Positions 1 to 2,385 of a stretch of 64,000 nucleotides of DNA are shown here, in pieces. The notes beneath the pieces are model-generated. The model was given only the letters and a program-made list of their open reading frames with translations, had not been told where the DNA came from and made no database searches. The first letter of the stretch is position 1, and each line of letters opens with the position of its first letter. A program made the position numbers and the translations under genes. The DNA comes from Neoscytalidium dimidiatum. Its lineage: Eukaryota; Ascomycota; Dothideomycetes; Botryosphaeriales; Botryosphaeriaceae. Location of the stretch: NCBI GenBank assembly GCA_037367355.1, contig CM074704.1, forward strand, positions 1,798,001 through 1,862,000, written 5' to 3'.

Positions 1-667
1 ACCGAGAATACACGGTGAGCGGTGAGGAACATCTGGTAGGACGTATGTGTGCAGTTACAGTAAATTGTATTACCGAATGCACAAGAGCAACGAATTCTGG
101 TGAAAGTTAAGTGAACTCATGCGGAGACACGCGGGGGGATGGTATGCATACAAGCACAATCTTCCGTCTCCTACTTCAGCCCAAATCCGCCTTATGATTC
201 ATTCCTGGTGAGTAGATTCTTGGTAGGCATCCTCTATACCACCTTTCCCTTGGACAAGAAGACACCTTCACTTTGCTCTTCCCCCAATTCTTCAGCAAGA
301 AGGTCTTTGAATCTGACGTAAGAGGGCTCAGACGACTGGGTGCCTACAGTTTCGTGGCACCTTCTGGGTAACTTAGTTAACGTCTGTCTTACCGCATCGA
401 GTAGTTTGACGGGATGGTACGGCGGCGAATACAGTGTCAGGCTTCGTACTTTCGCTTGCCTGCTCCCGCATGTAGAGAATATTCATTGCGTACAATGTCA
501 GCTCAAGGCATGTTTTCGTCGTCTAATGCAGGAGGTACGCGGGGAGTACGAACAAAAATGGTGGGGCTCCTCGGACAAGACAGGCAATTGCAACTGAAAC
601 CAGTCATCATTAGACAAAGAGGGGCAGCAGCGACGAGGCAGCCACAAAAGCAAGAGACAAAAAACAG
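1..667. other. Left-edge region without a recognisable gene
   Basis: No open frame here shows a family signature, codon bias or plausible splice pattern. The short open frames overlap in several phases, as expected by chance. A run of A on the plus strand near its right end is the pol III terminator of the neighbouring minus-strand tRNA. The region could hold the UTR of a gene beyond the window edge. Confidence 0.5.
659..664 (-). terminator. Pol III terminator of tRNA-Trp
   Basis: Six A on the plus strand read as six T on the minus strand, a few bases after the discriminator base of the tRNA. An oligo-T run this close to a tRNA 3' end is the standard RNA polymerase III stop. Confidence 0.75.
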
Positions 668-813
668 TGAGGACGGTGCGATTTGAACGCACAGCCTTCA
701 GGAAATTCCAGTAGTATTCGCTGGAATCTGACGCTGTAATGAGAGTTAGTATGAGGTGCCTGAGCCTCTTGGTAAGTGGAGAGGACTTACCGCTACCATT
801 GCGCCACGCCCCC
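668..813 (-). tRNA. tRNA-Trp(CCA) interrupted by two introns
   Basis: Read on the minus strand, 813 is base 1 and 668 is the discriminator A73. The acceptor stem pairs GGGGGCG with CGTCCTC (two G-U pairs). The D stem is GCGC/GCGC around AATGGTA. The anticodon is CCA preceded by TT and followed by G37. The T arm is GTGCG-TTCAAAT-CGCAC, and a T6 run follows. The mature length would be 72 nt without CCA. Two insertions must be removed. One is a roughly 17 nt intron after G37 (about 704-720) whose CTGGAA pairs with TTCCAG around the anticodon, as in eukaryotic tRNA introns. The other is a 57 nt insert in the 3' side of the D stem (734-790). With both removed, every stem but one anticodon-stem pair (A31 opposite C39) closes. 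A box and B box are both intact. A pseudogene is possible, but the conserved stems argue against it. Confidence 0.85.
734..790 (-). other. Spliceosomal-type GT-AG intron within the tRNA D arm
   Basis: The 57 nt insert starts GTAAGT (the consensus fungal 5' splice site) and ends ATTACAG. It has TACTAAC placed about 11 nt before the AG, which is the ideal branch site. Removing exactly these bases rebuilds a GCGC/GCGC D stem with a 7-base loop. Inside, GTAAG can pair with CTTAC and CCTCT with AGAGG in an interleaved, pseudoknot-like order. tRNA endonuclease introns normally sit between bases 37 and 38, so this position and these signals do not fit that class. That it is removed by the spliceosome is an inference from the signals. 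Confidence 0.7.
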
Positions 814-1035: not shown

Positions 1036-2385
1036 TCACAGCTCATCCCTCTGCCTATGCTCTTCCCGCTGCTGCGCCTCGAACTTCGCCCTCTCGACCC
1101 CCTCATCCCACATTCTCTTCTTTGGATTCCTTGGTTTATCCGACTCCACCAAAGGCTCGCCATCCCCTCTCCTAGGCACATCACCCTTTGGTGCCTCACC
1201 AGCGGCCGCCGCTTCTGCCATCTGGCCGACCTGCTCGGACATGCTTCCCGGCTCGCTCGGATTTTGTTGCTGCTGCTGGGGGTCACCCCTCTTGACACCA
1301 GCGCCGCCGGCGCCAGCGGGAACGTGGTGGGCAGGCTGATCAGGCATTCTGCGGTGTGCTCTGTTACTTGCGCTGGGCTGGACGATAAGACTAGAGGACG
1401 AGGATAGCGTTGTTGCCAGTGACGACAGTGCCTGAGAGGGTGCTGCACCACCTGCGAGGCCGACTGCTGCAAGGATGCTGAAGAGAAATTTGTATGCAAA
1501 CTTGAGCGGAAGCCAGGCGAACCACCAGAGGGGGCCGTAGAGAATGCGGCGGAAAAGGAGCCAACAGATTGTGGTGAGGAGGATGTAGAAGGTAGTTTCG
1601 AGGTACCAGGTATCGCTCTTCTGCGACCGGAGGAGCGAGTTGACGAGAGTCTTCGAGTTGGCGAGGAGGGTGCTGAGATCCGTGTACTTCTCTCCGAGCT
1701 CTGCAAGCGCGGCAGTCGACTGGTTAAGTGTCTCTTGTGCGAAGCGTGAGCGGGACAGCTCAGATGTCATCAACTGGTGCGTGCGTCGCAAGGCAGCAGT
1801 GACGTCGCTCGACGCGTTTGCGACGATTTCGTCTTGTGTGAGCTTCTCGGTGCCGCCGCGGCGTCGTCCAGCGGTGGGCGAAGCGTTTCCTTCTTGGATA
1901 CCAGCGAAGAGAAGTTCACGTTCTTTCTGCTTTGCGACCTCTGCGTTGCGCTTGGCTTGTAATTGAGCTTTACGGAACTGACTTCGAGCTCTGTAAAGCC
2001 GGGTGTTAGCACTGCTTCCATTGATGCCCCATGGAAAAGACGTCACTTACTGCCTGAGGTCTTCACTCAAGCGTGCAACTTGTATGCTTAATCTGCTCTT
2101 CTCACGCTCCTTCTCGCTGTCCCTCTTCTTGCTGGCAAGCGTGCTATCACTCACGAATTCCTCAACCTCTTGTCTCAGTAGTTCAAGCTCCTCCTCCTGA
2201 AGCTTTAAGCTATCGTGGATCTCGGAGCTAAGCTCTACGCGGACGTCGCCCTCTTCACCGTCGAGTGGAGTGGAGCCGGGTTGGAACTGGAGCTTTGCAA
2301 GGCGGTGGATGAGCTGCACAGTCTGCTTGTTCTGGTCGGATAGGCTCGCGAGGCGCGTTGCGAGGGAGGAGGTGGGAGCTGTCAT
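1036..2385 (-). CDS. Sec20-type SNARE, ER retrograde fusion
   Basis: Two exons: 2385-2051 and 1990-1036. The 60 nt intron has GTAAGT, GCTAAC and TTTACAG, and the product is 429 aa. Sec20 (BNIP1 in animals) is the Qb-like SNARE of the ER target complex with Ufe1, Use1 and the Dsl1 tether; it receives COPI vesicles returning from the Golgi. The N-terminal ~110 residues are acidic and coiled-coil-like. The Sec20/SNARE helix spans roughly 168-235. A transmembrane segment follows at about 241-258, then a second aromatic hydrophobic stretch to about 292. The long polar tail ends in RDEL, a variant of the HDEL that ends yeast Sec20. It is divergent from mL53, with 368 bp between start codons. Family identity is strong; the start at 2385 is the only in-frame ATG near the conserved N-terminus. 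Confidence 0.88.

Follow-up and report, generated by a model that had tools for sequence, protein, structure and literature searches.

Introns of tRNA genes and introns of mRNA genes are viewed as separate worlds, each with its own machine. The stretch of 64,000 nucleotides analysed here (the window) contains on its minus strand a tRNA-Trp(CCA) gene (813-668, read from the sequence) with two interruptions, a canonical tRNA intron and a GT-AG insert. The question raised by this locus is whether the gene carries a spliceosomal-type intron and needs two splicing machines, or whether the copy is inactive. Both possibilities had been put forward in a sequence-only reading, and the genome-wide evidence favours the first. 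The insert at 734-790 is very probably a U2-type spliceosomal intron in a nuclear tRNA gene of Pol III type, which would be removed by the spliceosome, while the 37/38 introns would be taken out by the tRNA endonuclease.

Table 1. Parts of the interrupted tRNA-Trp gene and their positions in the window
Feature	Position	Strand	Basis or remark
tRNA-Trp 5' exon, positions 1-24	791..813	-	A box ~806-796
GT-AG insert, 57 nt, site 24/25, putative spliceosomal intron	734..790	-	sequence, copy comparison
Insert 5' splice site GTAAGT	790-785	-	
Insert branch-like TACTAAC, branch A 746	751-745	-	
Insert 3' end CAG (…ACAG)	736-734	-	
tRNA-Trp middle exon, positions 25-37, anticodon CCA	721..733	-	sequence, ARAGORN
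Canonical 37/38 tRNA intron, 17 nt, pairs with anticodon loop	704..720	-	fold, ARAGORN
tRNA-Trp 3' exon, positions 38-73	668..703	-	B box ~688-680
T6 run, Pol III terminator-like	659..664	-	

The layout of exons and introns agreed with the sequence-only reading, in which a minus-strand tRNA-Trp(CCA) was split twice and one insert was bounded by GTAAGT and CAG with TACTAAC between them (Table 1). After removal of 790-734, pairing was complete in the acceptor (7 bp), D (4 bp) and T (5 bp) stems of tRNA-Trp, as had been claimed for the D stem, and ARAGORN, which found no tRNA in the unspliced sequence, named tRNA-Trp(cca). The only freedom in the edges of the insert was a one-base slide. The pairing proposed between the 37/38 intron and the anticodon was also found in the predicted fold (ATTCCAG/CTGGAAT). 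The tRNA had been described as complete, which held for the acceptor, D and T stems but not for the anticodon stem with its A31-C39 mismatch; this mismatch was present in all three tRNA-Trp copies of the genome (window positions 700-735 and two copies on contig C1). The raw window gave no Rfam match at gathering score, self-splicing introns included.

The genome searched was G000 (43.76 Mb in 40 contigs, with the window on contig C10), the only genome compared. Two further tRNA-Trp loci, about 720 bp apart on contig C1, were found with the gene as query, and a GT-AG insert was located at the identical D-stem site 24/25 in all three loci. The window copy was thus neither the sole tRNA-Trp(CCA) locus nor peculiar in having the insert, and tRNA-Trp genes lacking it, which were sought in this genome, were not found; the mature tRNA-Trp sequence as query gave no additional locus in G000. 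The 5' exon of the window gene differed from the two C1 copies only by a single C/T in the D loop, the one difference in the exons on either side of the GT-AG insert. The C1 inserts were 58 and 53 nt long, and the similarity of their bodies to that of the window insert was 0.65 and 0.60 (shuffled sequences averaged 0.57 and 0.55, with maxima of 0.65 and 0.62); over the three loci the pairwise values were 0.55-0.65, with shuffled means of 0.54-0.57 and shuffled maxima of 0.62-0.65. GTRRGT, CTAAY and YAG were common to the Trp inserts.

At least 11 intact GT-AG inserts are present in at least four tRNA families, namely Trp, initiator Met (iMet), Phe and Ala(AGC), at the sites 24/25, 30/31 and 19/20, numbered from the sequences. 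For iMet, three of the four loci found had an insert (57, 56 and 54 nt) at 24/25, the same site as in Trp. This tRNA has no 37/38 intron, and a search with its sequence gave no loci beyond the four in G000. The iMet gene on contig C3 had altered acceptor and T stems which were still paired, and the fourth locus (L092, G000:C12:1574833-1574958) was decayed, with GCGAGA as 5' site, no CTAAY, a broken acceptor pair and an altered T loop. In tRNA-Phe the insert (54, 54 and 61 nt) was located in the anticodon stem at 30/31 in three of the five loci found and was absent from the other two. Two of the four tRNA-Ala(AGC) loci found had a 58-nt insert in the D loop at 19/20, one locus (C4:2707177-2707293) had none, and in the last (L119, G000:C9:1013062-1013270) the 5' exon was not recognisable. 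L119 retains a stretch like the Ala GT-AG introns (TTTCC..TTAGGAA) and is likely a relic.

The copies without insert (two Phe loci and one Ala locus) defined the insert edges and showed exact insertion. Three of the four families, Trp, Phe and Ala, had a 37/38 intron as well. The two Ala inserts were related to each other (similarity 0.76, shuffled mean 0.59), and for two of the three Phe pairs the similarity of the bodies equalled or just exceeded the shuffled maximum; for the 11 intact inserts taken together, the bodies were mostly near shuffled similarity. As found, the 12 interrupted genes that were run through ARAGORN were either missed (4) or misnamed (8). After removal of the insert Trp, Met and Phe were named correctly, and Ala(AGC) was so once the 37/38 intron was also out; in its mature form, named Ala(agc), G3-U70 was present. 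Spliced Trp or iMet junctions had 0 matches in the assembly (an exact pattern with no positive control), so that, judged from this assembly, a ready-made copy of either tRNA would be lacking in the cell. In the RF00005 census 63 of 1020 candidates were scored, with no interrupted copy among them, and 40 of 54 were scored in the Ala-family search. Since the tRNA census is incomplete, both the count of interrupted tRNAs and the count of loci in each family are lower bounds.

Directly 3' of the tRNA in four of the five tRNA-Phe loci (L081-L085), a hairpin of the type CCAGTCTCAGGCTGG / CCAATCTCAGATTGG was observed, the stem of which had compensated changes; a different fold occupied the same place in the fifth locus (C2). 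Because the T runs occurred only beyond the hairpin, a structured 3' trailer may be part of the Phe precursor. Long introns at the canonical site were called by ARAGORN in two tRNA-Gly(GCC) genes (53 nt) and in one tRNA-Ser(GCT) gene (76 nt) (L070, L075 and L076). One further locus, L116, was a shortened tRNA-Arg copy and likely a relic. Contig C40 (307,956 bases) was organelle-like, and its tRNA matches recurred at about 176.85 kb; the circle therefore seems to have been assembled nearly twice over.

All 11 intact inserts were 53-61 nt long, started with GT, contained CTAAC or CTAAT with its branch A 10-13 nt upstream of the 3' end, and finished with YAG. The 5' sites were GTAAGT (four inserts), GTAAGC (three), GTAGGT, GTATGT, GTTAGT and GTCAGT. 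Three features of U2-type introns were thus found together, that is, GT…AG with the 5' consensus, a branch motif with YAG, and a product restored by removal. When interiors were shuffled, 2-4% of the resulting sequences per intron had a CTAAY 9-14 nt from the end; the edges GTNDGY…YAG, a pattern written after the set was seen, occurred in at most 0.00015 of the shuffles. A pattern of D arm, GTNNGT and CTAAY gave 5 matches in 43.8 Mb, all of them in these tRNA genes, and 0 in the reversed control; the iMet gene on C4 (GTAAGC) falls outside this pattern. When the B box was included, the genome pattern had 4 matches, one of which was Trp, against 3 in the reversed control, and so did not discriminate. 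The string of exon plus 5' site was found at 1 place in a collection of genome contigs and at 13 places in one of viral contigs, and the downstream tRNA B box was found at none of them.

Ordinary mRNA introns were available for comparison in the window, where eight were called by spliced alignment of its genes. Those of TAF2 were 50 and 52 nt long; those of a pyrophosphatase, aligned with a protein assembled from the window itself, had 72 and 70 nt. All four had CTGAC 9-19 nt before CAG. The four introns called in a hydrolase gene had no branch motif close to the 3' end; two of these look like misalignment. Because of the four hydrolase introns, the mRNA introns sampled are less regular than those of the tRNA genes. 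The best protein matches were in Botryosphaeriaceae, the hydrolase of the window being 92% identical to that of Macrophomina phaseolina and TAF2 85% identical to its match, which points to a Botryosphaeriaceae-like Dothideomycete, a filamentous ascomycete, as the source. At the Sec20 gene, a 60-nt stretch (1991-2050, minus strand) with GTAAGT…TGCTAAC…CAG is probably an ordinary mRNA intron, judged by its pattern. The strict intron pattern was present at 3 places in the window, namely the tRNA insert, 1991-2050 and 24974, where 0.5 would be expected.

Pol II transcripts are the usual substrates of the spliceosome, and the introns might be spliced from such transcripts instead of from Pol III precursors. 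Read-through from Sec20 would be one source for the window copy, since the Sec20 ORF (1036-2046, minus strand) ends 222 nt upstream of the tRNA-Trp gene on the same strand. Against this, the A and B boxes read from the sequences were whole, the inserts of all four families were located between the two boxes, and T runs of four or more followed nine of the nine intact Trp, iMet and Phe genes (the Ala flanks examined were too short to show one). U6 is also a Pol III transcript. Its introns in other fungi, as given in PMC5832005, are a precedent for a spliced Pol III RNA. No such precedent was obtained within G000 itself, where, unlike in those fungi, the single U6 gene found has no intron. Splicing from Pol II transcripts is accordingly regarded as unlikely.

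Another possibility is that the inserts are ectopic introns cut by the tRNA endonuclease through a bulge-helix-bulge fold, as in the red alga Cyanidioschyzon merolae, with GT-AG being coincidental. Ectopic introns in tRNA genes have been described from C. merolae and from the nucleomorph of Guillardia theta, many of the latter having no defined bulge-helix-bulge according to PMC3978253. The fold was defined here by a central helix of 4 bp, flanked at the junctions by two bulges of 3 nt each, and 9 of the 11 intact inserts failed the test. Two of the three Phe inserts passed in a lax form and the third failed; since the 5'-site letters of these two pair with the exon, they passed also with shuffled bodies. 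Two Trp inserts had four central pairs with no outer support. The test is only moderately sensitive, because just three of eight ordinary 37/38 introns passed as controls (three Trp did; three Phe and two Ala did not). The GT-AG inserts were not at 37/38, one base 3' of the anticodon, but at 24/25, 30/31 and 19/20, and the GT, the CTAAY at fixed distance and the YAG of all 11 would be left unexplained by the endonuclease. From these sequence features, the GT-AG inserts are probably not tRNA-endonuclease introns, and a bulge-helix-bulge origin of the whole set is improbable.

That the interrupted genes are pseudogenes, with other genes supplying the cell, is the least probable account and quite implausible: the partial census, the clearly decayed iMet copy and the Phe and Ala copies without insert could be cited for it, but Trp and iMet searches gave no other loci and no junction copy was matched, exons were intact in 11 loci, the changes in iMet C3 were compensated, the one copy without signals was the damaged one, and neutral inserts would not be expected to retain splice signals while their bodies diverge.

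Three other candidates were set aside. A group I or group II self-splicing intron was ruled out by length, the inserts having 53-61 nt and a catalytic core hundreds of bases. A local assembly error was ruled out because the picture is consistent across 11 loci, which are spread over nine contigs. For the Phe copies, an origin from a SINE-like repeat was considered and dropped; the search gave five loci.

The reading of the inserts as spliceosomal introns rests on the same site in all three Trp and the three intact iMet genes, other sites in Phe and Ala, no copy of the spliced junction, and the loss of signals in the decayed iMet locus. The maturation route could be proposed as follows. The gene would be transcribed by Pol III from the A and B boxes, which are left whole by the intron. 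The 5' site, CTAAY and YAG would then be recognised by the spliceosome, and the insert would leave as a lariat. By this step the D stem (Trp and iMet), the D loop (Ala) or the anticodon stem (Phe) would be restored. With the tRNA core in place, the tRNA endonuclease and ligase may take out the 37/38 intron where one is present. This order is suggested because Sen54 is reported to interact with the D arm (PMC4090602), and because D- and T-arm introns are reported to be removed before the anticodon intron in C. merolae (PMC9602550).

Among small structured RNAs, only U3 snoRNA and U6 snRNA are so far known as often interrupted by introns, according to a 2017 paper (PMC5832005), with U3 introns present in most of the Pezizomycotina analysed there. 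As that paper describes them (PMC5832005), the fungal U6 and U3 introns resemble the tRNA inserts in being short GT-AG introns in small structured RNA genes, with RCTRAY branch sites and with paralogues both with and without the intron. The difference is that the host here is a tRNA, that several families and three positions are involved, and that three of the four families also have a 37/38 intron. In C. merolae and in the G. theta nucleomorph, introns in the D arm and at other places of nuclear tRNA genes, alone or together with a 37/38 intron, are similar to the present ones in position (PMC3978253 and PMC9602550). In C. merolae, by the same papers (PMC3978253, PMC9602550), such introns are linked to the bulge-helix-bulge and the tRNA endonuclease, whereas most inserts here have no such fold and carry splice-site and branch signals. 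The canonical eukaryotic 37/38 intron, as outlined in PMC4090602, is carried by the Trp, Phe and Ala genes too, and the GT-AG insert differs from it in position, in signals and in the presumed machine.

rRNA is a Pol I product and U2 a Pol II product, and neither is a tRNA. Titles referenced in PMC2586383 name spliceosomal introns of ascomycete rDNA and of the Rhodotorula U2 snRNA gene, and these are like those described here in being located in genes of non-coding structural RNAs. No description of a spliceosomal intron in a tRNA gene was found in the open-licence literature searched, and an earlier description elsewhere may exist. The inserts are treated here as spliceosomal introns whose host genes make up a new class.

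The coexistence of copies that have the insert and copies that lack it is a natural record of intron gain or loss in genes of about 72 nt, in which the tRNA structure reveals at once if a junction is correct. Interrupted genes of this kind would also account for missing or misnamed tRNAs in annotations; for tRNAscan-SE 2.0, a search for non-canonical introns is described for archaea in the part of PMC8450103 consulted. In this Dothideomycete lineage, nuclear tRNA genes have likely acquired spliceosomal introns at several sites, with fixation in every working Trp and iMet copy, and Trp, Phe and Ala precursors would pass through two unrelated machines in turn. Because no Trp or iMet copy without insert was found, UGG decoding and translation start would require Pol III precursors to be processed by the spliceosome. 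If the inserts are spliced as proposed, the substrate of the spliceosome is a Pol III precursor that is both short and folded, and translation would be tied to splicing capacity.
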